Below are positions 16,837 through 63,174 of a stretch of 64,000 nt of DNA, in pieces. Position 1 is the first letter of the stretch; the number at the start of each line of letters is the position of its first letter. The translations under genes and the position numbers were made by a program. The DNA is taken from NCBI RefSeq assembly GCF_009729855.1, contig NZ_WODA01000025.1:62001-126000 (forward strand), in the 5' to 3' direction. The DNA comes from Agromyces luteolus. GTDB taxonomy: Bacteria > Actinomycetota > Actinomycetes > Actinomycetales > Microbacteriaceae. Under the pieces are notes generated by a model. That model was not told where the DNA came from. It was given only the letters and a program-made list of their open reading frames with translations, and did no database searches.

Positions 16837-16871
16837 GTGGATCTGAGGGGACTCGAACCCCTGACCCCCTG
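16837..16871 (-). repeat. distal direct repeat: 3' end of tRNA-Ala (candidate attachment site)
   Basis: 35 bases identical to 63140-63174. On the minus strand the repeat equals the last 34 bases of tRNA-Ala(GGC): the end of the anticodon stem, variable loop, full T-arm, the 3' acceptor strand and the discriminator, plus one more base. The 5' half of the tRNA is absent; the sequence to the right diverges at once. The orientation is the same as that of the intact tRNA, as expected for attL/attR. Confidence 0.85.
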
Positions 16872-17072
16872 ACGGGATGCACCCTGGCGGGCGCGCACGT
16901 GTTGGTTGTGGATGCCAGCAAGTATAAGGAAGAGCGGAGCAAGCGGCCCGAGCGGGAATCGCCGATTGATGCCGTCGCACGCCGGTGTCTGGGGACCAAA
17001 AGAGCCGCAAAAAGGCCACAGAGATCGGACCCGCTCCGTGAAAGTCGGGATCCCCCTTGGGTCGCGCGAGCC

Positions 17073-18110
17073 TCACTCCCCGGCCGCGCGCCAGCCCTCG
17101 AACTCCTCGAGCTTGAGGATGAAGTCCTCGAACATGAGCCGGTTGTCGACCTGGGTGTAGATCCGCATCGGACGCGCATCAGGGCGGGGCTCATACCCTC
17201 CGTCGGTGCGCAGCTCCGGCGTCGGGCACACGATGTGTCGGCTCGAGGCGCTGTCGGGTTCGAAGAGCGTGGTGAGGGCGGTCAGCAGCACCAGCGGCGA
17301 GTCGCCGAGCGCGTATGCACCAGCTCGGCCGCGACCGTGCCCGGCCACGCCGTCGAACACGAACCGGAGCTTGTCGAACAGGTAGCCGCCGATCGGACCG
17401 GTCGACGCGACACGAACCCGAAGTTCGGTCTCGGACATCAGGCACTGCCGGTAGACGTCGCGGGGGACCTGCCAGATCGGAATGGCCGACTCGTTGAACA
17501 CGACCTGGCCGGCGACGACATCGATGAGGAGGTTGTACTCGATCGGCATCGCCCCAGGCGGCGGGCTCGCGAGGTCGGCGTGCTCGGCGCCGCCGATCCA
17601 GATCAGCGTCATCCGTTCGGCGACCCGGGGCTCGGTCAGCAGCGCCGACGCCAGGTCCGTGAGGCCGCCGCCGGCGGCGTAGAAGAGTGGCGTGCTCACA
17701 TCGTCGCGCATCGCTTCGCGGATGATGGCGTCGACCGCGGGCGAGGGTTGCGGCGTGGCGAGATCGGTCAGCTGCAGCTCGGTGCCCTGCACGATCACCT
17801 CGGACGAGGTCAAGCCCATCCGTGTGAAGACGTCCCTGACGATCCCGGCGCCGTTCTCCGCCGAGCGGCCAGTCGGATCCCAGCGGTCGCCGGGCCGCAG
17901 ATGGGAGCTGATGATGAGAGGGATCTCGACCACGGGCGACAGCAGGTGGTGGACGAGCTGCACGAGGTCGTCGGGATCGCCGGCGAAGTCATTGTCGATG
18001 ATGACGCGTGCGCCGGCCGGGCCGGTGAGCGAGTGGGCCTGCCACGGAGCGAATCCGAGGGTCCAGATGGGCCCGGTGACTCCTGTGGGTTCGGTGGGAT
18101 TGCGGGTCAT
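17073..18110 (-). CDS. nucleoside hydrolase-like protein
   Basis: A 345-residue protein of the inosine/uridine nucleoside N-ribohydrolase fold. The calcium-binding aspartate cluster is visible as DNDFAGDPDDLVQL near residue 40, with the later GGAEHAD segment and an MPIEYNLLID region. The first motif departs slightly from the classical DTDxGxDD, having an Ala-Gly-Asp-Pro-Asp-Asp order, so the true substrate may be another ribosyl- or glycosyl-linked compound. It is the last gene of the hexuronate operon. The start is ATG with GAGGAG six bases upstream, and 69 bases separate it from the oxidoreductase gene. Confidence 0.75.
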   Translation of the reverse strand: MTRNPTEPTGVTGPIWTLGFAPWQAHSLTGPAGARVIIDNDFAGDPDDLVQLVHHLLSPVVEIPLIISSHLRPGDRWDPTGRSAENGAGIVRDVFTRMGLTSSEVIVQGTELQLTDLATPQPSPAVDAIIREAMRDDVSTPLFYAAGGGLTDLASALLTEPRVAERMTLIWIGGAEHADLASPPPGAMPIEYNLLIDVVAGQVVFNESAIPIWQVPRDVYRQCLMSETELRVRVASTGPIGGYLFDKLRFVFDGVAGHGRGRAGAYALGDSPLVLLTALTTLFEPDSASSRHIVCPTPELRTDGGYEPRPDARPMRIYTQVDNRLMFEDFILKLEEFEGWRAAGE

Positions 18111-18179
18111 GCGATCTCCTCGGCCGGGGTGCTCATGGTGACGGGAATGAAGGTGGGTGGCCTGGCGATGGTGAACGGC

Positions 18180-19190
18180 TCAGCCGGCGAGCGTGCGATC
18201 AGAGGCGAAGACCCGGGCTCGGATCTCGTCGAGGGTCTGTGCGACCGCGAGCGTCGCCGCGCAGTCGTGTCGGGAGACCTGCTGCTCACCTGCCGCGAGT
18301 GCGTCGGCGACGGCACGCAGCATCGGCCGGAACCCCGAACCGTCGCGGGGGTGCTCGACCCGCTCGGGCGAGTGGAGGATCGCCTCGCGCGATCCGGCGT
18401 GGACGCGTGCCGTGGTGCCCGCCCAGAACATCGGGTCGATCGTGATCCATCCGAGCGTGCCGCTGATCGTCGCGGCCTGGTCGAGGAAACCGATCGCGGA
18501 GCACGCCACGTCGGCGCGGGCTCCGTTCGCGAAGGTCAACGTCGCCCGCGCCTCCACGTCGGTACCGTCGACCGTGACGCCGGATGCCTCGACCGAGACC
18601 GGCTCGCCGAGCACCCACTGCGCGAGCGTGGCGCCGTAGATGCCGCGGTCGAGCACCGCGCTGTCGCCGCGCTCGGCCGTCCAGGAGCGGCCCGTCGCCT
18701 GCGACGGCATGCCGAACGTCGCCGAGACGTTCCGAGGCTCGCCGGCGAGACCGGCCTCGAGCCGTTGGATGAGGTCGACGTGGAGCGGGTTGAACTTCAT
18801 CCACATCGCCTCCATCGCGAAGACCCCGGCGGCATCGGCGGCGTCGAAGATCTGCGCGACCTCTGCGGCGCTGGCGGCCATCGGCTTCTCGATGAGCACG
18901 TGCTTCCCGGCGGCGATCGCGTCGAGCGCGATCGACAGGTGGGTCGCAATCGGCGTCGCGATGTACACGGCGTCGACATCGTCGCGTCGGAGCACCTCTG
19001 CGACGTCGTTCGACCACGCCGGAATGCCGTGCCTCTCGGCGAATGCGGCGGTCCGCTGCTCGTCACGGCCCCAGGCCGCGGTAACGCTGCCCGCGCCGAA
19101 GACGGCCTGCAGATCGGGCGCGAACTGGTGGGAGATCATCCCCGTGCCGAGCATGGCCCAGCGGATCGATGGTGCGGAAGCTGCGGTCAT
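18180..19190 (-). CDS. Gfo/Idh/MocA family oxidoreductase
   Basis: A 336-residue NAD(P)-dependent sugar dehydrogenase-type enzyme. The N-terminal Rossmann motif is MLGTGMISHQF. The conserved EKPMAAS motif carries the catalytic lysine, and AVYIATPIATH precedes it. The C-terminal alpha/beta domain has NGARADVACSAIGF. Such enzymes oxidise or epimerise sugars and sugar acids. In this place it may feed an uncommon sugar or lactone into the uronate path; the exact substrate is unknown. An ATG at 19247 is also in frame, but 19190 fits the family start better. Confidence 0.85.
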   Translation of the reverse strand: MTAASAPSIRWAMLGTGMISHQFAPDLQAVFGAGSVTAAWGRDEQRTAAFAERHGIPAWSNDVAEVLRRDDVDAVYIATPIATHLSIALDAIAAGKHVLIEKPMAASAAEVAQIFDAADAAGVFAMEAMWMKFNPLHVDLIQRLEAGLAGEPRNVSATFGMPSQATGRSWTAERGDSAVLDRGIYGATLAQWVLGEPVSVEASGVTVDGTDVEARATLTFANGARADVACSAIGFLDQAATISGTLGWITIDPMFWAGTTARVHAGSREAILHSPERVEHPRDGSGFRPMLRAVADALAAGEQQVSRHDCAATLAVAQTLDEIRARVFASDRTLAG

Positions 19191-19262
19191 GGAGTCATCC
19201 CTTCGTCGTTCGCCGCTGGGATCCCTGCGGGATCGGTGAAAAGACATCGGCGTCCTTCTTGT

Positions 19263-19865
19263 TCAGGAGACCGGGCGTTCAGGAGTCCGGTCGCGGCACG
19301 CGGCATCCGCGTCGAGGAACGCGACCGCCTGCGCGGCGGCCGTTTCGACGGGAAGATCCAGCGGCACCACCACTCCGTGCTCGTCGTCACCGAGCGGTTC
19401 GAGGGTTGCGAGCTGCGACGGGAGCATCGTCGCGGGCATGAAGTGCCCGGTGCGCTGCCCGATCCGCTCGGCGAGCTGCGCCGCGCTGCCGTGCACGTGC
19501 ACGAATGCGAGCTCGGCGCCGCTGTCCCGCATCAGCGCGTCACGGTACGCGCGGCGCAACGCCGAGCACGAGACGACGACCGGACGCCCCGCCGCGAGTT
19601 CGTCCCGGACGCGTGAGGCGACCCGGGCGAGCCACGGCCACCGGTCGTCGTCGGTGAGCGGGATCCCGCCGGCCATCTGGACCTTTGCCTCAGCCGAGTG
19701 CAGATCGTCGGCCTCCACGAATACCCCGCCGAGCCGGTCCGCAACGGCGGCGGCGAGGGTCGATTTCCCGGCCCCTGCCACCCCCATCACAACGACCGCT
19801 GCGGCCGTCGCAGAGGCATCCGCGCCCACGCCGGCTGACGCGGCCTGCTCGGTCATCGCGGTCAC
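19263..19865 (-). CDS. gntK: gluconokinase
   Basis: A 200-residue shikimate kinase-like P-loop enzyme of the gluconokinase family. It has [18 protein letters not shown] (Walker A), [29 protein letters not shown], the [11 protein letters not shown] motif and a [19 protein letters not shown] segment, all diagnostic. It phosphorylates D-gluconate to 6-phosphogluconate. The GTG start overlaps the stop of the mannonate dehydratase gene (GTGA), so the two are coupled. The operon lacks a PfkB-type 2-keto-3-deoxygluconate kinase, so whether this enzyme handles gluconate from another substrate or has broader use is open. Confidence 0.9.
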
Positions 19866-21106
19866 CAATCGTGGACGGTGCCGTCGAGGAGTCGGTTGTA
19901 GGGCAGGTAGGCCTGCTCGTACGGGTACTTCCCGGCCTCGTCGACGTTCAGTTCGACGCCCAGGCCGGGCTTCTCCCCCGGGTGCAGGTAGCCGTCGGTC
20001 CAGGTGAAGGACTGCTCGAACACCCGGTCGGTCTTCGCGCCGTGGCGCATGTACTCCTGGATGCCGAAGTTGTGGATCGACAGGCCGAGGTGCATCGCGG
20101 CGGCCATGCCGACCGGGCTGATGTCGGTCGGGCCGTGCATGCCCGACTTCACCTGGTACATCGCCGCGTAGTCGAGCGTCTTCTTCAGCGGGCTGATGCC
20201 GCCCATGTGGGTGACCGCGCCGCGCACGTAGTCGATCTGCTGGTCGCGGATGAGGTCCTTGAAGTCCCAGATCGTGTTGAAGATCTCGCCGATCGCGAGC
20301 GGGGTGGTGGTGTGCTGGCGCACGAGGCGCAGCGCCTCCTGGTTCTCGGCGGGCGTGCAGTCCTCGAGCCAGAACAGGTCGTACGGTTCGAGGTCCTTGC
20401 CGAGGCGGGCGGCCTGGATCGGGGTCATCCGGTGGTGCCCGTCGTGCAGCAGCGGCACGTCTGGGCCGAACTCGTTCCGCACGGCCTCGAACACGCCGGG
20501 CAGGTGGTTCAGGTACGCGCGCGTGTCCCAGTCCTCCTCGACCGGCTTCGCGCCGCGGCGCGCGGGCTCGTGGTCGTACCGGACGGATGCGTCGCCGACG
20601 TCGGCGCCCTGCGCCGCGATGCCGTAGATCGCCTTGAGCGTCGGCACGCCGGTCTGCACGCGGATCGCCCGGTAGCCCTGCTCCTGGTGGGCGCGGATCG
20701 AGTCGAAGAGTTCGGGCAGCTCCTTGCCCGACGCGTGCCCGTACGCCATGAGCCCGTTGCGCGACGCCCCGCCGAGGAGCTGGTAGACGGGCATCCCGGC
20801 CTCCTTGCCCTTGATGTCCCAGAGGGCCATGTCGACGGCGGCGATCGAGGCCATCGTGACCGGGCCGCGGCGCCAGTACGCCGAACGGTAGAGGAACTGC
20901 CAGGTGTCCTCGATGCGGCTCGCGTCGCTGCCGATGAGCAGCGGCACGACATGCTCCTGCAGGTAGGCGACGACGGCGAGTTCGCGGCCGTTCAGGGTCG
21001 CGTCGCCGAGGCCGGTGAGGCCGTCGGCGGTCGTGATCTTGAGGGTGACGAAGTTGCGGTCGGGGCTGGTGACGATGACCTCAGCCTTGTCGATGCTCGT
21101 GCTCAT
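19862..21106 (-). CDS. manD: D-mannonate dehydratase, enolase superfamily (ManD/RspA type)
   Basis: A 414-residue acid-sugar dehydratase of the mandelate racemase/enolase superfamily. The opening [18 protein letters not shown], the loop [24 protein letters not shown], the [11 protein letters not shown] motif, [19 protein letters not shown] and [10 protein letters not shown] are all typical of the ManD group and supply the metal ligands and catalytic residues. It dehydrates D-mannonate (and often D-gluconate) to 2-keto-3-deoxy-D-gluconate. It replaces the unrelated UxuA enzyme in this pathway. It starts 36 bases after the UxuB gene, and its stop overlaps the kinase start. Confidence 0.92.
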
Positions 21107-21142
21107 TCGGTGCTCCGTGGATCGTGGGTGAGCGGTTCGGGG

Positions 21143-22537
21143 TCAGGATGTCTCGAGCACGGCGATCGCGTCCGAGACGCGGGTCGCGAAGCCGGCGTCG
21201 GCGGCGAGCCGCGCATCGAGCGCGGTCAGCAGGGCGTGTCGGGCGGATGCGTCGAGCTCGGCGATCGCCGCAGGATCGATGCCGTGCGGTGCGGGCGCTG
21301 TGCCCGCCCGCACGCCGAGCATCCACGCGGCGATCGCGGCGGCGCACCCGGTCGCGGGTCGGCCGACGGCGAGCTCGCCGAGCGCGACCGGCACGATGCG
21401 CAGGCGCGCCTTGGTGGTCGAGTCCTGCGCGATCTGGGCGAGCCGGTGCTCGATGCGGGGGTTGCGGAAGCGTTCGAGGAGCGCCGCGCGGTAGTCGGCG
21501 AGGTCGAAGGTCGGGAGCTGGCGGGCGTCGTCGTCCCAGAGCGCCTCGACGAGGCGGAGGCACACGGGGTCGTCGATCGCGTCCGACACGACCGCGTGGC
21601 CGCGGGTCGGTCCGAACGCGGCGAGCACGGTGTGGGCGCCGTTCAGCATCCAGAGCTTGCGGTTCTCCCACGGCGCGATCTCGTCGACGAACCGGGCGCC
21701 TGCGGACTCCCAGTCGGGTCGACCGGCGGGGAAGTCGCCCTCGAGCACCCAGTCGGCGAACGGCTCGGTCACGACCGGCGCGGCGTCGAGCCATCCGGTC
21801 GCGTCGCGCACCGCGCGTGGCTCGGTGTCGAGGTCGATGGCAGGCGTGATGCGGTCGATCGACGTCGAAACGACCGAGACCGAGATACCCAACCAGACCG
21901 CCAGTTCGGCCGACGTGCGGCGTGCGAGACCGGCCAGCGCGCGCCGCAGGAGCCCGCCGTTGTCGGGCAGGTTGTCGCAGGGCACGATCGCGATCGCGCC
22001 GGATCCGGCGCGGCGGCGAGCGTCGAGGGCGAGCAGCACCCGGCCGAGCGCCGTCGCGGGCTGCGCTGACCGGAGTTCGCCGGCGTTCGCGAACGCGGCG
22101 GCGAGCAGCTCGACATCGGATGCCATTGCGGCATCCTCGAGGTTCGGCGAACCGTCTGCGTCGAGCCGGTAGCCGGCCTCGGTGATCGTGAGCGTGAGGA
22201 TCGCGATCCTCGGGTCGGCGACGGCCGCGACGAACGCGGCCACGTCATCGCCGGCCTCGACGCGCACGATCGACGGGATCAGCTCGAACCGGTCGCCCTC
22301 CGCGGCCCGCTCGACGAGCGTGTACAGGCCGTCCTGCGGGGTGAGCCGGTCGACGAGGTCGCGGCTGCGGCCAGAGAACGCGACGATCCCCCACTCAGCA
22401 GCGTCCAATGCGTGTGCGGTGTACCAGGCCTGATGGGCGCGGTGGAAGGCGCCGAGTCCGAGGTGCACGATCCGCTCCGGCGGGGTCGGCACACCGGTCG
22501 TCGCACGAGCGAGCCGGATCGCAGTGTCGGCGGTCAC
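21143..22537 (-). CDS. uxuB: mannitol dehydrogenase family protein, D-fructuronate reductase (mannonate dehydrogenase)
   Basis: A 464-residue polyol dehydrogenase-family enzyme. The N-terminal NAD motif is IVHLGLGAFHRAHQAWY. The catalytic region contains VPCDNLPDNGG, WENRKLWMLNGAHT and TRGH, which are typical of UxuB/MtlK-type enzymes (the lysine in NRKLW is the family's general base). In this context it should reduce D-fructuronate to D-mannonate. The GTG start overlaps the stop of uxaC (GTGA). The frame continues further upstream only as antisense noise. Confidence 0.88.
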   Translation of the reverse strand: MTADTAIRLARATTGVPTPPERIVHLGLGAFHRAHQAWYTAHALDAAEWGIVAFSGRSRDLVDRLTPQDGLYTLVERAAEGDRFELIPSIVRVEAGDDVAAFVAAVADPRIAILTLTITEAGYRLDADGSPNLEDAAMASDVELLAAAFANAGELRSAQPATALGRVLLALDARRRAGSGAIAIVPCDNLPDNGGLLRRALAGLARRTSAELAVWLGISVSVVSTSIDRITPAIDLDTEPRAVRDATGWLDAAPVVTEPFADWVLEGDFPAGRPDWESAGARFVDEIAPWENRKLWMLNGAHTVLAAFGPTRGHAVVSDAIDDPVCLRLVEALWDDDARQLPTFDLADYRAALLERFRNPRIEHRLAQIAQDSTTKARLRIVPVALGELAVGRPATGCAAAIAAWMLGVRAGTAPAPHGIDPAAIAELDASARHALLTALDARLAADAGFATRVSDAIAVLETS

Positions 22538-23931
22538 AGCTTGAACACCTCTCGGGGGATGGCGTCGACCAGGTCGTCGATGATGCGCTCCGCGGCGTCC
22601 ATCCGCACCCGGCCTTCGACGACGAGGCGCGCGAGGAATCCGGCGTCGACCCGTCGGGCGGTGTCGTGACGTGCCGGGATCGACAGGAACGCACGTGTGT
22701 CGTCGATGAACCCGCTGCTGCGGTAGAAGCCCGCGGTCTCGGTCACCGCGGCCCGGTGGCGGGCGATCGCGTCGGGTGCGTCGAGGAACCACCACGGCGC
22801 GCCGACATAGACGCTCGGGTAGAACCCGGCGAGCGGCGCGAGCTCGCGCGAGTACGTCGTCTCGTCGACCGCGAACAGCACGAGGTGGAAGTCGCGTTCG
22901 AGGCCGTAGCGCTCCAGCAGCGGGCGGATGCCGCGCGTGAACTCGGTCGCGATGGGGATGTCGTGCCCGGTGTCGGGCCCGAAGGCGGTGTGCGTGGCCG
23001 TGGAGTGGTTGCGGAGCACGCCCGGGTGGATCGTCATGACGAGCCCGTCGTCGACGCTCATCCGCGCCATCTGCACGAGCATGTGGCCGCGGAATGCGCG
23101 CCGGTCCCCCGCGCTCGCAGTGCCGGCGAGCACCGCTTGGAACAGCCGCTCGCCCTCGCCCGGATCGAGATCGACCGTGAACAGCTCCTCGACCCCGTTG
23201 TCGGTCGAGACCGCGCCGTGCCGGATGAAGTGCGCCCTCCGGTCCTCCAACGCACCGAGGTAGCCGTCGAAGTCGCCGGTGTGTCCAGTCGCGCCGAGCA
23301 GCCGATCGACGTGGTCGGTGAATCCGGCCGCGTCGGGGTCGAGGTATCGGTCGGGACGGAACGTCGGCACCACTCGACCGCCGAGAGCGGATGCCGCGAG
23401 CGCGGCATGCTCCGATAGATCGTCGAGCGGGTCGTCGGTGGTGGCGAGGAACTCGATCCCGAACCGCTCGAACAGCGCGCGCGGCCGGAACTCCGGACGG
23501 GCCAGTGCGGCGGCGATCTCGTCGTAGATCGCATCCGCGGTGTCGGGGCCGAGCGGAGTCGTGATGCCGAAGACCCCGTCGAGCTCCTCCTCGATCCAGT
23601 AGCCGGAGGCGGTTCCGGCGAACCGGTGCCAGTGCGCGGCGAGCGTGCGCCACACCGTGCGCGCGTCGCGCCCGGCCCGCTCGTCGACGACCAGGTCGGC
23701 GAGGTCGACCCCCGCGGCGTGCAGCAGCCGGGTCACGTAGTGATCGCCTGTGACCAACAGCGACACGGGGTCGGCGTACGGCTCGTCGCGCAGCAGCAAG
23801 GACGGGGGCACGTGGCCGTGCGGCGAGATGATCGGGCTGCCGGCCACGCGTGCGTACAGGTCGAGCGCGACCGACCTGGTCGACGGGTCGGCCGGTAGCA
23901 GGCGGGCGGGATCTCGTGGCGGCATGGTCAC
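22534..23931 (-). CDS. uxaC: glucuronate (uronate) isomerase
   Basis: A 465-residue uronate isomerase of the amidohydrolase superfamily. The metal site HGHVPP is at about residues 39-44. Further hallmarks are FGIEFLATTDDPLDDL, the long MTIHPGVLRNHS segment and LFAVDETTYSRELAPLAGFYPSVYVGAPWWFLD near the C-terminus. It converts D-glucuronate to D-fructuronate and D-galacturonate to D-tagaturonate. No tagaturonate reductase (UxaB) or altronate dehydratase is nearby, so the glucuronate branch is the one served. GTG overlaps the stop of the GH2 gene. Confidence 0.93.
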   Translation of the reverse strand: MTMPPRDPARLLPADPSTRSVALDLYARVAGSPIISPHGHVPPSLLLRDEPYADPVSLLVTGDHYVTRLLHAAGVDLADLVVDERAGRDARTVWRTLAAHWHRFAGTASGYWIEEELDGVFGITTPLGPDTADAIYDEIAAALARPEFRPRALFERFGIEFLATTDDPLDDLSEHAALAASALGGRVVPTFRPDRYLDPDAAGFTDHVDRLLGATGHTGDFDGYLGALEDRRAHFIRHGAVSTDNGVEELFTVDLDPGEGERLFQAVLAGTASAGDRRAFRGHMLVQMARMSVDDGLVMTIHPGVLRNHSTATHTAFGPDTGHDIPIATEFTRGIRPLLERYGLERDFHLVLFAVDETTYSRELAPLAGFYPSVYVGAPWWFLDAPDAIARHRAAVTETAGFYRSSGFIDDTRAFLSIPARHDTARRVDAGFLARLVVEGRVRMDAAERIIDDLVDAIPREVFKL

Positions 23932-26168: not shown

Positions 26169-26244
26169 GGGTGTCTCCTTCGACGTGGATGCACCGGCGC
26201 GCGCCGGTGCGGCTTCGCCCACCGTACGAAGCCGACGCGACGAG

Positions 26245-26273
26245 ATGATAGAACTGGTCATGCACGATCAGCA
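26245..26273 (-). promoter_or_regulatory. candidate promoter of the hexuronate operon
   Basis: On the minus strand a good -10 (TATCAT, 26250-26245) is paired at 17 bases with a poor -35 (TGCTGA, 26273-26268). A poor -35 is usual for activator-dependent promoters and fits the divergent AraC-family gene that starts at 26316. Confidence 0.4.
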
Positions 26274-26315
26274 CTGATTCGGCACCATTTCCGGAAGCGA
26301 CGAACCGAGGCCCTC

Positions 26316-27533: not shown

Positions 27534-27542
27534 CGTATGCGA

Positions 27543-27572
27543 GGGCCGCGGATCGCATCGGATCCGCGGCCC
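27543..27572. terminator. bidirectional terminator
   Basis: A perfect 12-base stem (GGGCCGCGGATC and GATCCGCGGCCC) with a 6-base loop, between the convergent AraC and symporter genes. Confidence 0.85.
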
Positions 27573-27589
27573 CCGGGGCCGGCGCGAGA

Positions 27590-29092: not shown

Positions 29093-29195
29093 TGCGTGTT
29101 CGCTCCTTCGAGAATCCGCTCGGCCGGCCGACGGGTCGTTCCGACGGTCGCTTCATGAGCTGAAGGCAACAGTAGGAAGCGGGGAGACCCGCCGA

Positions 29196-29223
29196 GTAGA
29201 AGGTGACGAGCGGGTGTAGAAGG
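29196..29223. promoter_or_regulatory. direct repeat GTAGAAGG x2, candidate AraC-type binding site
   Basis: Two identical 8-base copies of GTAGAAGG are spaced 20 bases start to start (about two helical turns), 104-131 bases upstream of the symporter start. Direct half-sites at this spacing are how AraC-family activators usually bind. A related GTAGGAAG lies at about 29172. Confidence 0.4.
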
Positions 29224-29264
29224 AAATCGGCGCCAAGTGTGGAGCCGCTGCCCCGGCGACGGAC

Positions 29265-29298: not shown

Positions 29299-29317
29299 AT
29301 CGACGGGAACCCGCCCG

Positions 29318-50066: not shown

Positions 50067-50074
50067 GCTCATTG

Positions 50075-51037: not shown

Positions 51038-51050
51038 GAAGCGTCCTCGT

Positions 51051-52582: not shown

Positions 52583-52621
52583 CTCCCTGCCTTCCGTCCT
52601 GGTCGATCCGGTCGCGCCGGT

Positions 52622-54100: not shown

Positions 54101-54157
54101 GGGGTTTCGCTTCCGTGTGTGAGTGCAGGTGAAGTCAGGGAGGGCGGGGCGCGGGGC

Positions 54158-55228: not shown

Positions 55229-56142
55229 GCGGCCACGGTAGCCCCGAGCACCCCCGCGCGCTCGAGGATCCCGGCGAGCCGTTCCCGCTCGGCCGGAGCC
55301 AGGGGCTGGATCGGCAGTCGCGCCGGACCGACCGGGTTGCCGGTCAGTTCGAGCGCCGCCTTGATGCCGGCCACGTAGTTGACGGACTCGAGGAAGTCGC
55401 TGAGCTCCCAGAGCGGAGTCCAGAGCGCACGAGCGGCCTCGAGGTCGCGGTCGACCGCGAGCGTGTTCCACAGCTGCACGGCGAGGTCGGGCACGATGCC
55501 GGCGACGCCCCACACCGACGCCTCGGCGCCACTGGCGATGCCGAAGAACGTGAGGGTGTCCCATCCGTTGAAGGCCTTGATCCGGTCGCCGCGCACGGCG
55601 AGCAGCTCGGCGAGTGCGACCGCGTCGCCCGAGGTGTCCTTCAGGTAGTCGACGCCCTCGATGTCGCCGAGCTCGGCGATCTCCGCCGCCGTGAGCTTCA
55701 GGCCGGTGGCACCGGGCACGTTGTAGTACACGATCGGGATCGTGATCGCCGTCGCGACGTCCCACAGGAACGCCTTCAGCGCGTCGAACGACAGCGGGTC
55801 GTAGAACGGCGGGACGAGCATGATCGCGTCGGCGCCGACGCGCTCGGCGTGGCGGGCGAGGTCGATCGCGCCGTCGGTCGAGAGGCTGCCGACGCCGGCG
55901 ACGACGGGTACCCGGCCGGCGGCCGCCTCGACGTAGGCCTCGATCACGCGGCGGTACTCGGCCGGGGATAGCGTCGTGAACTCTCCGGTCGTGCCGGTCG
56001 GAACGAGTCCGTGGATGCCGGCAGCGATGAGCCGGTCGACCTGCCGGCGGAGCGCGGCCTCGTCGACCTGCGTGCCGTCGTCGGTGAAGGGCGTGGTGAC
56101 GGCGGCGAGGATGCCGCGGAGCTGGACGTTGGTGCGGGTCAT
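55225..56142 (-). CDS. DapA-family lyase: 1-pyrroline-4-hydroxy-2-carboxylate deaminase candidate
   Basis: A 305-residue dihydrodipicolinate synthase-family enzyme. The oxyanion/pyruvate loop is GTTGE at residues 50-54, the catalytic tyrosine is in YYNVPG (about 140), and the Schiff-base lysine is Lys168 in YLKDTSGD. In hydroxyproline operons a member of this family deaminates and opens the pyrroline to 2-oxoglutarate semialdehyde. The neighbours fit that role better than lysine biosynthesis. ATG has AAAGGA upstream, and it lies 14 bases after the oxidase gene. Confidence 0.87.
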   Translation of the reverse strand: MTRTNVQLRGILAAVTTPFTDDGTQVDEAALRRQVDRLIAAGIHGLVPTGTTGEFTTLSPAEYRRVIEAYVEAAAGRVPVVAGVGSLSTDGAIDLARHAERVGADAIMLVPPFYDPLSFDALKAFLWDVATAITIPIVYYNVPGATGLKLTAAEIAELGDIEGVDYLKDTSGDAVALAELLAVRGDRIKAFNGWDTLTFFGIASGAEASVWGVAGIVPDLAVQLWNTLAVDRDLEAARALWTPLWELSDFLESVNYVAGIKAALELTGNPVGPARLPIQPLAPAERERLAGILERAGVLGATVAA

Positions 56143-56156
56143 GGTGGTGGTTCCTT

Positions 56157-57413
56157 TCAGGATGCGTGGGCCAGGCGGCCGCCGGAGAAGCGGGCCGGAG
56201 CGAAGGGCGCGAGCAGCGGCGATTGCCGGTCGCGGAGGATGAGGTCGGTCATCGCGGCCGCCGAGCCCGGGGCGAGCGTGACGCCGAGCATGCCGTGGCC
56301 GGTGGAGACGTAGGCGTTCGAGAGGCCGCCGAGTCGGCCCATGACCGGGAGCCCGTCGGGGGTCATGGGGCGCATGCCGGCCTGCGGACGGACGGGCGTG
56401 CGGGGTGGTTCCCAGCCGCGGAAGTAGGTGGTCGGTGCGCGGAGGATGGCGTCGACGCGGACCTGGTTGATGTCCTCGTCGAGGCCGCCGAACTCCATGG
56501 TCCCGGCCAGGCGCAGGTTGCGCGAGAGCGGGGTGACGGCGACCTTCGCGTCCGACAGGTTCGTCGCACTCCGGAGGGCGAACGGTTCGACGTCGACGCT
56601 GTAGCCCTTGCCGGGGCGGACCGGAAGGCTCGCACCGAACAGCTTCGAGAGCGGGCCGGTCCAGGCGCCTGCTGCGAGCAGGAACCGGTCCCCGATGAAG
56701 GTGCGGCTGCCCGAGCGGATGGCGCGCACGCGCCCGTTCCGGATCTCGACCGATTCCACGGGCGCGTTCTCGACGATGTCGACGCCCAGTCCGACGAGCC
56801 GGTCGTGCAGCGCGCGGGCCAGCGCACCGGGGTCGACGTGCCGTTCCTTCGGGAAGAAGAGGCCGCCCTCGACCGCGTCGGACAGCAGCGGCTCGTGCGT
56901 GCGCACGTCGTCCCCGACGAGCACGGTCGGCTCGAGGCCGTAGCGCTTGACCAGGTCGAGGTGCGTGAGGTGATGGTCGAGGTTCTCCTTGCGGGTGAAG
57001 GCCATGAGGAGGCCCTCGTTGTGCATCTCGAAGTCCATGCCGTCGGCGCGGTACTCGTCGAAGACCTCGACGGTGTGCTCGGCGAGGGCGAGATGCCCGG
57101 CGAAGCCGGCGCGCTGCGCCTTCGCGTTGGAGGCCCGCCACATGCCGAACATGAACGAGAGGAAGGAGGGATTGAGCGATGGGCGGATGTAGAGCGGGCT
57201 GTCGGGACGGAGCATCCACTTCAGCGAGGTGAGCACGACGCCCGGGCCGGGCACGGGTGCGGCCTCGGCCGGCACGATCCATCCGGCGTTGACGTCGCTG
57301 GCGCCGAGGCCCGTGGGCCGGGCGTCGACCAGCGTGACCGTCGCGCCCTCACGGGCGAGGTGGTATGCGGTCGTCAGTCCGATGACGCCGCCGCCGATGA
57401 CCACGGTGTGCAA
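56157..57413 (-). CDS. FAD-dependent D-amino acid dehydrogenase (cis-4-hydroxy-D-proline dehydrogenase candidate)
   Basis: A 418-residue DadA-type flavoprotein. The FAD-binding motif VVIGGGVIGLTTAYHLA starts at residue 4. The DVNAGWIVPAEAAPVPGPG segment is typical of single-chain D-hydroxyproline/D-amino acid dehydrogenases, and the C-terminal GMRPMTPDGLPVMGR...VSTGHGMLGVTLAPGSA closes the flavin site. It oxidises cis-4-hydroxy-D-proline to 1-pyrroline-4-hydroxy-2-carboxylate in this pathway. The start is a TTG, chosen because AGAAAGGA lies eight bases upstream and the FAD motif follows at once; no ATG fits. Confidence 0.88.
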   Translation of the reverse strand: MHTVVIGGGVIGLTTAYHLAREGATVTLVDARPTGLGASDVNAGWIVPAEAAPVPGPGVVLTSLKWMLRPDSPLYIRPSLNPSFLSFMFGMWRASNAKAQRAGFAGHLALAEHTVEVFDEYRADGMDFEMHNEGLLMAFTRKENLDHHLTHLDLVKRYGLEPTVLVGDDVRTHEPLLSDAVEGGLFFPKERHVDPGALARALHDRLVGLGVDIVENAPVESVEIRNGRVRAIRSGSRTFIGDRFLLAAGAWTGPLSKLFGASLPVRPGKGYSVDVEPFALRSATNLSDAKVAVTPLSRNLRLAGTMEFGGLDEDINQVRVDAILRAPTTYFRGWEPPRTPVRPQAGMRPMTPDGLPVMGRLGGLSNAYVSTGHGMLGVTLAPGSAAAMTDLILRDRQSPLLAPFAPARFSGGRLAHAS

Positions 57414-57471
57414 CGCGGTGGTCCTTTCTCTCGGGGTGGTGGGTGGGGGCCGAGGCCCCCACCCGGTGGGG

Positions 57472-58290
57472 CTAGAAGCGGACCGCGTCGACGAACTTCT
57501 TGAGTTCGGGGTTCGTCGAGCGGTTGAAGGCCTCGTCGGGGGTCGCGTTGACCGCGATCTCGCCCTCATGGAAGAAGACGACCCGGTCGGCAGCCTTGGA
57601 TGCGAACGCCATGTCATGCGTGACGAGCGCGACGGCGATGCCCTCCTCCTGCTTGAGGCGTCGGAGCACCTCGAGCACCTCGGCCGCGACGGGCGGGTCG
57701 AGCGCGCTGGTGATCTCGTCGCAGAGCAGGAGCTTCGGACGCATCATCAGGGCGCGGGCGATCGCGACGCGTTGGCGCTCGCCGCCCGAGAGCTGCGACG
57801 GGCGGCTGCGGAGGTGCTGCGACATCCCGACCTCGGCGAGCGCGACTTCGGCGCGCTCCTTCGCCTCGGCAGCACTGAGTCCCAGCCGCTTGCGCGGCGC
57901 CAGGGTCAGGTTGGCCAGGACGTCCATGTGCGGCCAGAGCGTGTACGTCTGGAACACCATGCCGACGTGCGACTCGACGTCGCGCCAGTCGTCGGTGCGC
58001 TCCTCGTCCTCGAAGACGACCTTTCCGTCGAACACGATGCGTCCGGCGTCGGGGTCGGTGAGGCCGGCGAGCGCCCGCAGCAGCGTGCTCTTGCCGGAGC
58101 CGCTCTTGCCGATGATCACGGTGATGTCGCCGGCGAGCATGTCGAAGTCGACGTTCTTCAGGATCATCCGGTCGTTGAAGCTCTTCTGGAGCCCCCGCGC
58201 CGAGACGAGGATCTCGCCGTGGCTCGCCGTGATGGTGGACGAGGCGGGCTCGACGCGGCGACGCGAACCCGTGTTCGTGAGCTGGCTCAT
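57472..58290 (-). CDS. amino-acid ABC transporter ATP-binding protein
   Basis: A 272-residue GlnQ/HisP-type ATPase with Walker A GKSGSGKST, signature LSGGERQRVAIARAL, Walker B LLLCDEITSALDP and the switch histidine in VTHDM. The 25-residue N-terminal tail is extra. The gene overlaps the permease stop by four bases. It powers import by the permease and binding protein encoded just before it, presumably of hydroxyproline. Confidence 0.93.
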   Translation of the reverse strand: MSQLTNTGSRRRVEPASSTITASHGEILVSARGLQKSFNDRMILKNVDFDMLAGDITVIIGKSGSGKSTLLRALAGLTDPDAGRIVFDGKVVFEDEERTDDWRDVESHVGMVFQTYTLWPHMDVLANLTLAPRKRLGLSAAEAKERAEVALAEVGMSQHLRSRPSQLSGGERQRVAIARALMMRPKLLLCDEITSALDPPVAAEVLEVLRRLKQEEGIAVALVTHDMAFASKAADRVVFFHEGEIAVNATPDEAFNRSTNPELKKFVDAVRF

Positions 58291-59030
58291 GCTGCGGCCT
58301 TCACTTTCAGTCCGGGCACCATCCGGGAGAGCAGGTTCGGTCCTGCGGTTCCGGATGGTCCTTGGTTCATCATGTTTCGCTCGATCCGCGACAGGATCAA
58401 GGACACGGGGAACGCGATGACGAAGTACATCAGCGCGGCCGTCGTCAGGATCTCCAGCGCCCGGTACGACTCGGAGGCGATCTTGTTCGCGGTGAACATG
58501 AGGTCGGCCACCGCGATCGTCGAGACGAGCGCCGTGTCCTTGAACAGCGAGATGTTCAGCGAGAGGATCACGGGCAGCTGCTGCCGCAGCGCCTGCGGGA
58601 TGATGATGTACCGCACCCGCTGCCACGAGCTCAGGCGAAGCATCTTCCCGGCCTCGATCTGCTCGACCGGGACCGCCTGGAAGCCGGAGCGCAGTGCCTC
58701 GGCCATGAAGGCGGTGAGGTTCGCCGTGAGCGCGATGACCGCCGAGATGAACCCGGGGATCGTGATCCCCGTGAGCGTCGGCAGCGCGTAGTACACCCAG
58801 AACAGCTGAACGAGCAGCGGCGTGCATCGGAACAGCTCGATGTACCCCTGGGCGACCCAGCGCACGATGTCGATGTTCGACATGCGCATCAGTGCCACGG
58901 GAACGGCGAGGATCATCGACAGCACGATCACGATCAGCGTGATCTGGATCGTGACGCCGAGACCCTCGAGCAACCGCGGGAAGTTGCTCGTGACGACGTT
59001 CCAGTCGAAGTCGTAGCTCTTGACCATCAT
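58287..59030 (-). CDS. polar amino-acid ABC transporter permease
   Basis: A 247-residue permease of the His/Glu/Gln/Arg/opine class with five or six membrane helices and the ATPase-coupling loop EALRSGFQAVPVEQIEAGKMLRLSSWQRVRYIIIPQALRQQLP. A single permease gene implies a homodimer. It lies 21 bases after the binding-protein gene and overlaps the ATPase start. Confidence 0.93.
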   Translation of the reverse strand: MMVKSYDFDWNVVTSNFPRLLEGLGVTIQITLIVIVLSMILAVPVALMRMSNIDIVRWVAQGYIELFRCTPLLVQLFWVYYALPTLTGITIPGFISAVIALTANLTAFMAEALRSGFQAVPVEQIEAGKMLRLSSWQRVRYIIIPQALRQQLPVILSLNISLFKDTALVSTIAVADLMFTANKIASESYRALEILTTAALMYFVIAFPVSLILSRIERNMMNQGPSGTAGPNLLSRMVPGLKVKAAA

Positions 59031-59051
59031 GGTGATCGGCTCCGATCGGGG

Positions 59052-59930
59052 TTACTGCATCCGGAGGTCACCGAGGGTGTCGACCTCGATGATCCCGGCC
59101 TCTTCGAACGCCCGGGCGAGTGAGCCGTCGTTCTTCGCGGACTGGATGGCGATGTTCAGCACCTGCAGCGAGCGGGCGTCGATGTCGGCGTTCACGCCGT
59201 AGTTCGAGTCCTGCACGAAGATGGCGGGGTCGGGCACGACGATCTTGAGCGTCGGGTCCTTCTGCGCCGCGTCGGCGAGGGTCGGGAGGTCGGCGAACGC
59301 GGCGACGGCGCGGCCGGCACCCATGGCCGTGACGGCGTTCGGGATGCTCTCGGTGGTCATCAGTTCGGCACCGAGTGCCGCGATGGCGGGCTCGTATGAG
59401 GTGCCGCCCGCGAGGGCGATCGGCTGGCCGCTGGCGACGATGTCCTCGACGCTCGTCAGCCCGGAGTCGGCCTGCACGAGGAAGGCGCCCTCGTAGGTGT
59501 AGACCGGGTCGGTGAACTGGATCGCCAGCGAACGCTCGGAGGTCGAGTCGAGGTAGGCGGCCACGTCGAAGCGGTCGGCCTGCAGGCCGGAGACCATCTT
59601 GCTCCACTCGGCCGCGACGGGCGTGAACTTCACGCCGAGCTCCTCGGCGAGCTTCTGCAGCGGGAGCACGTTCGGGCCGCCCATGGTGCCGTCGGCCTGC
59701 TCGGCCGTCATCGGCGGCGCCGACGCGATGCCGACGCGCAGCTCGCCCTGGTCCTTGATCTTCTCGATCCAGGCGCCGTTGGTCGTGGCGGCCTCGCTCG
59801 CGGTGGCGCTGCTGCCGCCGCGGAGCGTCGCGCCGAGGAAGCCCGCGGCGAGGGCGAGCACGACGACGCCGATCACGGCGAGAATCGTGCGGTTGGTCTT
59901 CTTCGTCTTCTTCGAAGTGGTGCTGGACAT
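59052..59930 (-). CDS. amino-acid ABC transporter substrate-binding protein
   Basis: A 292-residue periplasmic-binding-protein-like (SBP_bac_3) protein. It has a lysine-rich start, one hydrophobic segment (about residues 15-37, ILAVIGVVVLALAAGFLGATL), then the binding domain with GELRVGIASAPPM, DVAAYLDSTSERSLAIQFTDP and GVNADIDARSL. There is no lipobox cysteine, unusual for a Gram-positive binding protein, so it must stay attached through its uncleaved helix or be released. It is the first enzyme-scale gene of the hydroxyproline operon. Confidence 0.9.
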   Translation of the reverse strand: MSSTTSKKTKKTNRTILAVIGVVVLALAAGFLGATLRGGSSATASEAATTNGAWIEKIKDQGELRVGIASAPPMTAEQADGTMGGPNVLPLQKLAEELGVKFTPVAAEWSKMVSGLQADRFDVAAYLDSTSERSLAIQFTDPVYTYEGAFLVQADSGLTSVEDIVASGQPIALAGGTSYEPAIAALGAELMTTESIPNAVTAMGAGRAVAAFADLPTLADAAQKDPTLKIVVPDPAIFVQDSNYGVNADIDARSLQVLNIAIQSAKNDGSLARAFEEAGIIEVDTLGDLRMQ

Positions 59931-60022
59931 GGAGTGCCCTTCTTGGACGGTTGAGGAATGGGGACTGGGTGGGGCGGATGCCTCGGGCGGATGCCGGGCC
60001 GGGCCCGCGGGCTGCAGGTCCG

Positions 60023-60139
60023 TCAGCGACTTCTGATCGCGGACCCGTCGTCGGCGGGAGGACCGACTCGCGTGGTGGTGTCGCCGTCTGCTTCGTCGAC
60101 CCGCGGGTGGCGGTTCGTCCGAGGTGAAATGCGGTTCAT
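60023..60139 (-). CDS. short upstream ORF in the hydroxyproline operon leader (38 codons)
   Basis: An ATG with a strong AAGGAG eight bases upstream opens a 38-codon frame ending in TGA, 92 bases before the binding-protein gene. The product would be arginine- and proline-containing (MNRISPRTNRHPRVDEAD...), basic, and without a membrane segment. It starts about 20 bases downstream of the operator-like repeats, so it should be on the operon mRNA. It could be a leader peptide, or a chance ORF. A GC-rich CCCGCGGGCCCGG stretch right after it could fold. Confidence 0.45.
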   Translation of the reverse strand: MNRISPRTNRHPRVDEADGDTTTRVGPPADDGSAIRSR

Positions 60140-60161
60140 CTCACTGACTCCTTCGACTGCG

Positions 60162-60181
60162 TTGTCTTAGTGTCTTACAAT
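60162..60181. promoter_or_regulatory. candidate GntR operator of the hydroxyproline operon
   Basis: TTGTCTTAG (60162-60170) and TGTCTTACA (60171-60179) follow each other directly, the second continuing to TTACAAT. On the minus strand this is ATTGTAAGACA, the same sequence as at 62852-62862 in front of the GntR gene. TGTNNNACA is the usual FadR/FCD-type GntR site. It lies 23-42 bases upstream of the short leader ORF. Confidence 0.7.
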
Positions 60182-60432
60182 CTGGCGATAAGGCAAACCG
60201 TACGATGTCGACGCCGGGAACGCAAGGGGTTCGCATGAAATCGACCCGAAACGATCGCGACCCCGGGCGTTCATCTCATGCGACCCGAGGCCGCCTGAGC
60301 GCTGGGATTTCGGGCTCCGACCTCCGCGCAGACCCCGATCCCGGCCGAACGTAACGATCAGGTGAAACCCGCAGGGCGACGACCACGTCGTCCCGCTGCA
60401 CCGATTCCGACCACACGATTGGAGACCATCCG

Positions 60433-61452
60433 ATGGAACAGATCCCACGCACCGTGCTCGCGGACTCCGCAGAACTGCTCCGATTCACCGAGGAGGTGCT
60501 GGGGCGACTCGGCACGCGCCCGGCTGACGCGCACGACATGGCCGTGCAGATCGTCGACTCCGAACTCGCCGGGCACGAGTCGCACGGCATGCGCCGGCTG
60601 CCGGAGTACGTCGATCGCGCCCTGGCCGGGCATGCCGATCCTCGCGCGGAGGTGACCGTCGAGGTCGATACGGGCGCGCTCGTGCGCGTCGACGGCAATC
60701 GCGGATTCGGGCACCTCGTCCTCCGCGACGCCACCCGCATCGCCGTCGAGCGGGCGAAGGTGCATGGCATCGCCGGTGTCGGCGTGCGGCGGGCCGAGTG
60801 GGCCGGGCGCTTCGTCGACTTCGTGGACTGGGCGGCCAACCGCGGCGTCGTCACACTCCTCTTCGCCAACGCCAGCGGTTCGGCCCAGGCCGTTGCCCCG
60901 CCCGGCGGGCTCGAACCGCGACTGTCCACGAATCCGATCGCGTTCGGGATCCCACGGGCGGGAGGCCCGAACCTCGTGCTCGACATGGCGACGAGCGCGG
61001 TGGCGATGGGACGCGTCTCGGAGTGGCGGGACCGTGGCGAGGCGATTCCGGAGGACTGGTCGTCCGACGGAGTGCTGCAGTTCCTCGGCGGCGCGAAGGG
61101 CTTCGGATTGGCCCTGGTCGCAGAGGCGCTGGCGGGCGCGCTGAGCGGCGCAGGGACCGTTTCGCCGGCTCCCGCCGAGGACCACCAAGGGGTGTTCCTC
61201 ATCGCCATCGACGTCAGCCGCCTGCGCGACCCAGATGACTTCGCCGCCGAGATCGGGCGCGTCGTCGACTACGTGAAGGACGTCCCCCTGGAGCCCGGCG
61301 CTTCGACCGTGCGGGTCCCCGGCGAGGGATCATCCGCGACCGCCGCTCGTCGGCGGGCGGCGGGGGCCCCGGTGCAGGCCTTCACGTGGGCACGGCTGTC
61401 AGAGCTGGCCGAGCGATTCGACGTCCCGCTCCCCGGCGAGACCACCGTCTGA
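60433..61452 (+). CDS. Ldh family (malate/L-lactate dehydrogenase-like) oxidoreductase
   Basis: A 339-residue enzyme of the Ldh2/YlbC/DpkA family, distinct from classical lactate dehydrogenases. Typical are GHESHGMRRLPEYVDRALAG, the VGVRRAEWAGRFVDFVDWAANRG region, LSTNPIAFGIPR and the FLGGAKGFGLALVAEALAGALSGAG block. Known members reduce delta1-pyrroline-2-carboxylate or delta1-piperideine-2-carboxylate, or oxidise malate, sulfolactate or ureidoglycolate. Next to a hydroxyproline operon with a Ser-type epimerase/dehydratase, pyrroline-2-carboxylate reductase is the best guess. TTGGAGACC gives the ribosome binding site. Confidence 0.87.
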   Translation: MEQIPRTVLADSAELLRFTEEVLGRLGTRPADAHDMAVQIVDSELAGHESHGMRRLPEYVDRALAGHADPRAEVTVEVDTGALVRVDGNRGFGHLVLRDATRIAVERAKVHGIAGVGVRRAEWAGRFVDFVDWAANRGVVTLLFANASGSAQAVAPPGGLEPRLSTNPIAFGIPRAGGPNLVLDMATSAVAMGRVSEWRDRGEAIPEDWSSDGVLQFLGGAKGFGLALVAEALAGALSGAGTVSPAPAEDHQGVFLIAIDVSRLRDPDDFAAEIGRVVDYVKDVPLEPGASTVRVPGEGSSATAARRRAAGAPVQAFTWARLSELAERFDVPLPGETTV

Positions 61453-61520
61453 TCGCCGGATGCCCCGCCCGCCGGGCGCGGCGGCTGCTCACCGTCACGC
61501 CCGGAGGGCCGGCATGCTCG

Positions 61521-62114
61521 TCATTCGACCTCGAACACGCGCCCCGTCTGCACGCCCTCGATCGACTTCCGGAACGCCTGCCCGACGACACTGGCCGGCA
61601 CCGGCAGGAAGCCGGGGAACGCGTCGTGATACCCCTCGGCCTCCTCGAGCACGGTCGGGCTGACGGCGTTGATCCGGATGCCGCGAGGCAGCTCGGCCGC
61701 GGCCGCCATCACGAACGCCTCGATGGCCCCGTTCGCCATCGCTGCCGCAGCACCGGTGTGGATCGGCTCACGCGCCAGGATGCCCGTGGTCAGGGTGATC
61801 GAGCCGCGGTCGCGCAGGTACGGCGTGCCGATGCGGACCACATCGAGCTGGCTGAGCACCTTGCCAGCGAACCCTGCGAGATAGTCGTCGCGCGAGAGGT
61901 CGGCGAGCGGCTTGAACGGTACCGAGCCGATCGCGGAGACGATGGCATCCACCTCGCCGACGGTCTCGAACAGGCGCTCGATCGACGCAGGCTCCGTCGC
62001 GTCGACCGGTGGTTCGCTACTGCGGCCGACGCCGATCACCTCGTGACGGGCTTCGAGCGCCTCCACGGCGGCCGACCCCACGTGGCCATTCGCCCCGACG
62101 ACGAGAACCTTCAT
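61521..62114 (-). CDS. short-chain dehydrogenase/reductase (short form)
   Basis: A 197-residue small SDR. VLVVGANGHVGSAAVEAL is the cofactor motif, and VSAIGS replaces NNAG. The active site, TLTTGILA...HTGAAAAMANGAIEAF, lacks the classical YxxxK tyrosine, as in the atypical 'short chain dehydrogenase' group near YbjT/YddE-type proteins. Catalysis is therefore uncertain. ATG overlaps the stop of the GntR regulator gene, so it is coupled to the regulator rather than to the catabolic operon. Confidence 0.82.
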   Translation of the reverse strand: MKVLVVGANGHVGSAAVEALEARHEVIGVGRSSEPPVDATEPASIERLFETVGEVDAIVSAIGSVPFKPLADLSRDDYLAGFAGKVLSQLDVVRIGTPYLRDRGSITLTTGILAREPIHTGAAAAMANGAIEAFVMAAAAELPRGIRINAVSPTVLEEAEGYHDAFPGFLPVPASVVGQAFRKSIEGVQTGRVFEVE

Positions 62115-62818
62115 TGCGTTTCCTCTCCGCCGAGCAGCGTGATGAGCTCCTCGGCACTGGTGAGCGTGTGGGCGACGAACGCCGCCTCGATCGTGTCGCG
62201 ATCCTTCGTGCGGATCGCGACCATGAGGTCGGCGTGCACACGGTGTGCGCGTTCGGGGTCGTCCCGTGCGGTCTGGTCCTCGGCGATCGCGAGTGTGATG
62301 TGGGCTTCGGTGACGGGCCAGAGCTTCAACAGGAGGTAGTTCTCGGATGCCGCCCAGATCTGCCGATGGAACGCCAGATGCGCCTCGTGTTGCACGACCG
62401 GGTCGGGATGGAACGCGTAGCGCTCGAACTGCTCCCACCCCTCCTCGACGATCTGCATCCGACGCCCCGTCTGGTCAGCGAGGATCGCGTCGATCGCGAG
62501 CATGTCGAGCCCCACCCGTGCGACGGCGATGTCGCGGATCTGCTCCTTCGTGACATCCGCTACCCGAAGCCCTCGGTACGGCTCCTGCACGATGAGCCCT
62601 TCGCGCGTGAGTTGGTTGAGCGCCTCACGCACCGTCGGCCGGCTCACACCGAGAGAGGTCGCGAGCTGCGTCTCGGTCAGCTTGTCCCCCGGCTTCAGCC
62701 TGCCGAGGATGATCGCACGCCGGATCTCGATCCCGACGGCGTCCTTCCTGGAGACGCTCGCCACGACAGTCGGGCCCCACGGAGGCACACCACCCCGTTC
62801 ATCCGCATTGATGCTCAT
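62111..62818 (-). CDS. GntR family (FadR/FCD subgroup) regulator of the hydroxyproline genes
   Basis: A 235-residue regulator. The winged HTH at residues 25-90 reads IEIRRAIILGRLKPGDKLTETQLATSLGVSRPTVREALNQLTREGLIVQEPYRGLRVADV. The all-helical FCD effector domain follows, with HEAHLAFHRQIWAASEN supplying metal-binding histidines. It starts at ATG 62818 with GAGAGGA upstream. The shared palindrome at its own promoter and at 60162-60181 argues that it represses both itself and the operon, with a pathway intermediate as inducer. Confidence 0.92.
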   Translation of the reverse strand: MSINADERGGVPPWGPTVVASVSRKDAVGIEIRRAIILGRLKPGDKLTETQLATSLGVSRPTVREALNQLTREGLIVQEPYRGLRVADVTKEQIRDIAVARVGLDMLAIDAILADQTGRRMQIVEEGWEQFERYAFHPDPVVQHEAHLAFHRQIWAASENYLLLKLWPVTEAHITLAIAEDQTARDDPERAHRVHADLMVAIRTKDRDTIEAAFVAHTLTSAEELITLLGGEETQ

Positions 62819-62851
62819 TCGGCACCGTCCTCTCGGGGAATAGCCTACCTG

Positions 62852-62864
62852 ATTGTAAGACAAT
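62852..62864. promoter_or_regulatory. GntR-type operator ATTGT-AAG-ACAAT
   Basis: A perfect inverted repeat with 5-base arms and a 3-base spacer, 34-46 bases upstream of the GntR start. Eleven of its 13 bases recur in front of the hydroxyproline operon. The following 62865-63100 stretch holds no gene; it includes ACACATGTGT at 63002-63011 and a CCAAAAGAGCCGCA block at 63070-63083 that recurs at 16996-17009. Confidence 0.7.
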
Positions 62865-63102
62865 CTTCCGTGAGACGGGCGGAGGGGCCATGCGACACGC
62901 GGTCCGCGCCGACGCGCGGCCTGCACAACGCGTGCCGTGCAGCCCTCAACCGCGCTCGTCGATGGTGCGCGACAGATTGCGATAGCCGCGATCGGCGGGA
63001 AACACATGTGTATACGTGGAGGCACCGACTACATACGCGAAAGCAGCCACAAGCCCCGGATAAAGGGCCCCAAAAGAGCCGCAGGAAAACGCTCCCCAAA
63101 CG

Positions 63103-63139
63103 AAAAACCCCTGAGAATCATTGATTCATCAGGGGTTTT
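63103..63139 (-). terminator. rho-independent terminator of tRNA-Ala
   Basis: An 11-base stem (AAAACCCCTGA / TCAGGGGTTTT) plus an inner GAATC/GATTC stem. On the minus strand the hairpin follows the tRNA and ends in a T-run. It is nearly the same as the one at 16798-16834. Confidence 0.9.
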
Positions 63140-63174
63140 GTGGATCTGAGGGGACTCGAACCCCTGACCCCCTG
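63140..63174 (-). repeat. proximal direct repeat inside tRNA-Ala (candidate attachment site)
   Basis: 35 bases identical to 16837-16871. This copy is part of the intact tRNA gene: its 3' 34 bases plus one. Confidence 0.85.

Follow-up and report, generated by a model that had tools for sequence, protein, structure and literature searches.

An integrase-less 46-kb catabolic interval at the tRNA-Ala(GGC) gene of Agromyces luteolus and its relatives at the same site in the genus

The stretch of DNA analysed here, hereafter the window, comprises 64,000 nucleotides of a contig (NZ_WODA01000025.1) of the soil bacterium Agromyces luteolus and contains a 46-kb interval bounded by two copies of the 3' end of a tRNA-Ala(GGC) gene. 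We examined the anatomy and the gene content of this interval, and compared it with the tRNA-Ala loci of 60 Agromyces genomes in all, the source genome being designated G000 and the others labelled in the same manner.

Anatomy and cargo of the interval

The interval is delimited by two identical 35-bp direct repeats, which occur nowhere else in the 3.9-Mb assembly of G000 (26 contigs) when up to three mismatches are allowed. No third site was found in the window within nine substitutions on either strand, and 20 mononucleotide shuffles (one strand) gave none. As ARAGORN finds one intact tRNA-Ala(GGC) in the window, at the right repeat, the left repeat corresponds to a 3'-half remnant. An earlier first-pass annotation had described the repeats in this way, with the right copy in the intact tRNA and the left one devoid of the 5' half, and both points are borne out. 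Beyond both repeats, a hairpin followed by a U-run is present on the tRNA strand (-20.7 and -23.4 kcal/mol). The same annotation had described near-identical terminators at these positions; the hairpins are indeed there, but they are element-type terminators of two different kinds, and the terminator of the empty site in G025 is unrelated to them. Each element appears to supply the terminator for the tRNA that it rebuilds.

With regard to gene content, genes were called with a purpose-written codon-usage script, which may miss small genes. All 39 genes called between the repeats match Pfam, and none of them belongs to a recombinase, relaxase or phage family, in agreement with what had been claimed from the sequence. 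The sole match named after a transposase is a sub-threshold helix-turn-helix (HTH) match in an AraC regulator, which scores 22 where 27.4 is required. G000 exhibits four PF00589 matches and one PF00239 match, all outside the interval, and a serine integrase within the interval was rejected, as the only Resolvase match in G000 sits on contig 2. A tblastn search of the window with int and xis gave no match, and no relative of the cognate tyrosine integrase was found in G000 at E<=0.001. The interval is recognisable neither as an integrative and conjugative element (ICE) or integrative and mobilizable element (IME) nor as a prophage, as Pfam reveals no integrase, conjugation, mobilisation or virion gene among the 39.

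The cargo (Table 1) is accessory and catabolic, as had been proposed, with genes for the breakdown of sugars and amino acids, but it is a mosaic. The 16-kb rhamnogalacturonan/pectin-type block is present in 11 of the 59 other Agromyces genomes, at 80-88% over long pieces. In G049 it lies inside a 147-kb tRNA-Ala interval, and in G029 directly between the anchor gene and tRNA-Ala, where no remnant is present; the remaining carriers have it elsewhere or on other contigs. As this block is common to these genomes at several places, it is either mobile or repeatedly retained. The last block of the interval, which we take to encode hydroxyproline-type catabolism, occurs as a block only in G049 among the other genomes, at an unrelated location. 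A comparison of composition inside and outside the interval had also been suggested. Tetranucleotides do not separate the island from its host and remain within the background range, whereas codon usage is modestly off: mean codon similarity is 0.680 in the interval (37 genes) versus 0.746 (319 genes; p=6e-5), and is lowest at 43.7-50 kb of the window.

Table 1 Features of the window around the tRNA-Ala(GGC) interval
Position	Strand	Feature	Basis
14231-14737	-	168-aa chromosomal anchor gene	homologue in fetched loci of 47/57 genomes
14859-15074	+	71-aa chromosomal gene	67-101 bp from tRNA-Ala in empty-site genomes
15075-16730		remainder of older insertion, or flanking genes lost in G025	comparison with G025 and G012
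15131-16021		aldo/keto reductase	Pfam; common to G012 up to 16025
16158-16607		149-aa gene without Pfam match	Pfam scan
16731-16836		presumed right end of older decayed element, type Ib	match to G012 contig 39 and G055
16837-16871	-	left direct repeat, tRNA-Ala 3'-half remnant	sequence identity, genome-wide count
16872-17028		element left end, arm-like region	GTGGATGCC at 16908
17073-23925	-	nucleoside hydrolase, GFO/IDH, AAA_33 kinase-like, enolase-superfamily enzyme, mannitol dehydrogenase family, UxaC uronate isomerase	Pfam
23928-39910		rhamnogalacturonan/pectin-type block: GH2, AraC, MFS, SDR, GH43, sugar isomerase, SDR, GH1, GH78, MFS, TetR	Pfam
40213-50647		GH106, TetR (two), hexapeptide transferase, arginase family, LysR, aminotransferase, ornithine cyclodeaminase family, cupin	Pfam
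50744-62818		proline racemase family, DHDPS, DAO, aldehyde dehydrogenase, ABC transporter, Ldh_2, SDRs, ArsR-like and GntR regulators	Pfam
63000-63139		type II element right end	terminator hairpin within 63098-63139 (tRNA strand), conserved stretch 63068-63099
63140-63174	-	right direct repeat, tRNA 3' half plus one base	sequence identity, genome-wide count
63140-63213	-	intact tRNA-Ala(GGC), putative regenerated integration target	ARAGORN
63306-63713	-	chromosomal gene right of tRNA	putative rsfS of the first-pass annotation

Insertions at tRNA-Ala(GGC) in Agromyces

Empty sites are found in G025, G007, G018 and G022. That of G025 is approximately 91% identical to the window on both flanks and matches positions 13931-15074 and 63140-64000, with approximately 100 bp between the two matches. 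Relative to G025, the insertion amounts to approximately 48 kb, the break lies at about 15075 and not at 16836, and the left repeat is internal to the insertion. The interval thus exhibits the insertion at a tRNA 3' end, the direct repeat and the empty site in relatives that characterise genomic islands, although not an integrase of its own. An insertion at this tRNA end and an empty site in relatives had both been predicted, and both are supported. However, the gene adjoining the tRNA in all four empty sites is the 71-aa gene, and not the 149-aa gene or the aldo/keto reductase, as had been expected.

The chromosome had also been assumed to resume directly left of the left repeat, which is not the case: homology to G025 stops at 15074, and the right end of what seems to be an older element lies there instead. 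Positions 16731-16836 are 93% identical to the right end on contig 39 of G012, which carries an intact xis-int pair, and 91% identical to G055, both alignments including part of the repeat. As this right end, of a type that we call Ib, adjoins the left repeat, we interpret the window as a tandem comprising a type Ib residue, the 46-kb element and the tRNA. None of the fetched tRNA-Ala loci encodes a homologue of the 149-aa protein, whose gene lies further left, with more than 50% identity, and this gene is possibly relic cargo of the older element.

On the strength of the sequence comparisons, tRNA-Ala(GGC) is an integration hotspot in Agromyces. The tRNA 34-mer occurs without mismatch in 58 of the 60 genomes, the exceptions being G011 and G056, whose loci, together with that of G051, were not in the fetched set. 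A search for other islands with the same end, as had been recommended, revealed extra 3'-end copies without the 5' half in 13 genomes (G000, G010, G012, G019, G021, G024, G031, G043, G044, G045, G047, G049 and G059). Copies on the same contig are 0.9 kb (G031) to 147 kb (G049) apart, and the intervals of G010, G012 and G021 are not seen whole because their copies sit on different contigs. On contig 89 of G040, at positions 1483 and 1708, two tRNA-Ala 3' halves stand 225 bp apart. This is apparently a tandem tRNA gene, and the copies were excluded from the remnant count because both are followed by the start of a 5' half.

Six of the 13 remnant-bearing genomes (G010, G021, G024, G044, G049 and G059) exhibit a xis-int pair 0.2-0.5 kb inside the intact tRNA, composed of a tyrosine integrase and a 75-aa xis partner. 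In the pair of G059, on which Pfam was checked, the partner belongs to HTH_17 and the integrase to PF00589. The int gene is split in two in G044, and the int match of G024 holds one TAA. In G012, the pair is located where contig 39 ends, the contig being broken within the repeat. The missing enzyme of the window had been suggested to be either lost or supplied in trans, and these seven genomes now provide a candidate for it. Among the others, G019, G043 and G047 carry fragments or xis alone, G045 has no xis/int within 3 kb of the tRNA and a weak 59-aa match left of its remnant, and G031, like G000, gave nothing at E<=0.001.

The ends of the window element are related to those of the xis-int islands, among which only the xis and int of G059 were scanned with Pfam. 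Its left end is 78-90% identical to left ends of G012, G031 and G047, and the alignments extend across the repeat and part of the terminator. The motif GTGGAT.CC is found 36-38 bp inside the remnant in 12 of the 15 left ends scored, one of the two left ends of G012 being left out. The left ends of G044 and G045 do not match the left-end consensus and may constitute another subfamily. The 22-kb interval of G059, which has an open integrase, encodes proteins resembling AbiE and type I restriction subunits (by eye, from their first residues), so that its cargo looks like defence.

Element ends and the probable origin of the interval

The right end of the window element groups with one end of G012, four of G031 and one of G047. 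These seven ends from four species, which we term type II, are supported by an ultrafast bootstrap (UFBoot) value of 98, and no xis/int match is found beside any of them. Over the 1.2-kb stretches compared, type II similarity fades within approximately 300 bp, and none of the other type II loci contains a long nucleotide match to the window cargo. The cargo on contig 35 of G012 is catabolic (7 of 13 called genes scanned), and that of G031 comprises RHS and HINT proteins and Mutator-family transposases (eight proteins scanned). Two of the G031 ends have different partners within the clade, one being placed with G047 (94) and the other with G000 and G012 (81), so that the G031 array holds several sublineages.

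With regard to the G031 array itself, one module of approximately 0.9 kb lies between two remnants, and the other modules encode RHS-repeat, YwqJ-deaminase and pretoxin-HINT proteins and Mutator-family transposases. A type Ib right end in this genome (locus L092, 6474 onward) is cut in the middle of its terminator near a Mutator-family transposase gene, and this cut may explain the absence of a left repeat in that module.

All four genomes with type II ends also exhibit an integrase-type end at the same locus, which adjoins the type II module in G000, G031 and G047 and lies on a separate contig in G012. The Ib identity of this outer end is clearer for G000, G012 and G031 than for G047. The type II ends of G031 and G047 are 90.9% identical over 198 noncoding bp versus 73.1% for the chromosomal flank, and the type Ib ends of G012 and G055 are 95.6% identical versus 77.5%. 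The element ends are more alike than the flanks, which indicates horizontal movement.

These observations are, in our view, best explained by a family of Agromyces elements with a tyrosine integrase directed at the tRNA-Ala(GGC) 3' half. An element would enter by a crossover between the tRNA 3' half that it carries and the tRNA of the chromosome, which would rebuild an intact tRNA with the terminator of the element and leave the old 3' half at the far end. In the window, such an insertion would have occurred beside an older Ib element already decayed to little more than its right end, resulting in accretion. The window element belongs to the type II lineage, which has element ends and no xis-int. 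Most likely, a related integrase of the Ib type would have integrated it in trans, or would have brought it along in cis. We are therefore inclined, with some reserve, to regard the interval as an element similar to cis-mobilizable elements (CIMEs), moved by the integrase of a relative and accreted onto a decayed element. It is now probably stranded, as no such integrase is left in G000. We propose more tentatively, as something that falls short of being probable, that type II is a self-standing non-autonomous lineage with ends only and no recombinase. Such a lineage would have freely exchanged cargo of 0.9 to 46 kb and stacked arrays, would be spread between species by sister Ib integrases, and each copy would bring the tRNA its own terminator.

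Several alternatives have to be weighed against movement by a relative's integrase. The window element may originally have possessed an xis-int pair and lost it by deletion after its arrival, with separate losses in the other type II modules. Decay of this kind is common at the site: xis/int is disrupted or partial beside the ends of G009, G013, G016, G019, G026, G027, G028, G043, G044 and G055, and none was detected beside element-like ends in G002, G003, G020, G037, G045 and G057. Nevertheless, none of the seven type II ends retains a trace of xis/int and these ends form one clade over four species, so that independent decay appears doubtful, albeit far from negligible. The clade, its integrase-less ends and the horizontal movement together speak for a helper-moved lineage rather than for separate decay, although they do not prove it. 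It is unlikely that the cargo was acquired or rearranged with no integrase involved, through RecA-dependent homologous recombination among tRNA-Ala 3' copies or gene conversion among them. The identical repeats could recombine, G000 and G031 lack the cognate integrase and the 16-kb block of G029 lies beside tRNA-Ala with no remnant, but both window ends share sequence beyond the repeat with integrase-bearing islands. A chance repeat or a simple tRNA duplication is barely conceivable. The former was rejected, as the genome has only two copies and the shuffles gave none. The G040 pair could serve as a precedent for the latter, which was likewise rejected, as the window has a single intact tRNA and a left copy without the 5' half, and the layout of remnant and element end recurs in other genomes.

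Some observations weigh against the origin that we favour. Relatives of the cognate integrase are absent from G000 and G031, G047 has only a fragment, and a living helper is found only in G012, on a different contig from the type II module. Decayed or lost integrases are common beside type I ends too. The grouping of Ib ends is weak, the main group having a UFBoot value of 58, and the outer end of G047 and G028 group with type II at 67 in one tree and with Ib in another (without support values), all trees being based on approximately 120 bp. The count of element-like right ends at the intact tRNA, which in itself speaks for the favoured origin with 29 of the 57 genomes with a fetched tRNA (G012 and G050 being too short to score), includes five matches of 40-55 bp only and G031 by self match. 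The GTGGATGCC and CCCCAAAAGAGCC motifs are putative arm sites. The window, like four of the six other type II ends, lacks the outer GTGGATGCC right-arm site, and a second, ill-made arm pattern matched one of 12 ends and no place in the window. As GTGGATGCC is patchy and the second pattern failed, the assignment of arm sites comes from the alignment only. Finally, excision and transfer of the window element are hypothetical.

Beyond the genus, a closely related phage or plasmid was rejected as the source of the integrase, as all 155 phage and 14 plasmid records fall below 60% identity, with at most 33.2% among the ten matches listed of each. No viral contig matched the six peptide patterns. The type II pattern was found in three stretches of named genomes, namely one of Agromyces sp. 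H66 and two labelled Bernardetiaceae and Bacteroidota. The one viral match has no tRNA-Ala 3' end within eight substitutions and was judged to be due to chance. Among 398 genomes of the family, of which 10 belong to the 60 Agromyces genomes and none is G012 or G047, the type II arm (<=3 mismatches) matched only G000 and G031. Judged by titles or the start of abstracts, no paper on a tRNA-Ala integration site in Agromyces or Microbacteriaceae was found, and no terminator-related paper matched all search terms.

Relation to known elements and significance

CIMEs are presented as having attachment sites at both ends and no integration or transfer genes, and as occurring in tandem with a related element (Pavlovic 2004, cited in PMC5704250); in that account they derive from an ICE or IME by decay. 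The window element is similar in keeping repeats and element-type ends on both sides (putative attL and attR, the outer right-arm site being absent), in having no integration or transfer genes among its 39 Pfam-scanned genes, and in lying in tandem with a type Ib right end at one target. In contrast, the window-type modules share a lineage of ends across four species, with no conjugative parent identified. A second parallel is provided by the ssrA islands of Dehalococcoides, which are arranged in tandem and bounded by 3'-end repeats of an RNA gene, as in the window. Fifteen of them have no integration module, and the authors suggested that these are CIMEs (PMC3146451). The recombinases at ssrA are serine recombinases and the cargo is rich in rdhA (PMC3146451), whereas Agromyces exhibits a tyrosine integrase with an HTH_17 partner at tRNA-Ala, and a catabolic cargo in the window.

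By its anatomy, the window element would work in the manner of a CIME and of those Dehalococcoides ssrA islands that have no integrase. Island accretion and cis-mobilization in Streptomyces were reportedly the subject of a 2017 article by Zhang and Loria; going by the title alone, it shares with our case tandem accretion in an actinobacterium. The window element thus appears to belong to a known kind, while its derivation from a conjugative element and its cis-mobilisation are putative.

Many catabolic islands have no integrase, and their origin is left open. The presence of full, decayed and integrase-less relatives at one site across a whole genus makes it possible to address directly whether islands of this sort are dead relics or belong to a lineage that depends on a helper integrase. 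A candidate helper, on contig 39 of G012, and defined element ends are now at hand.

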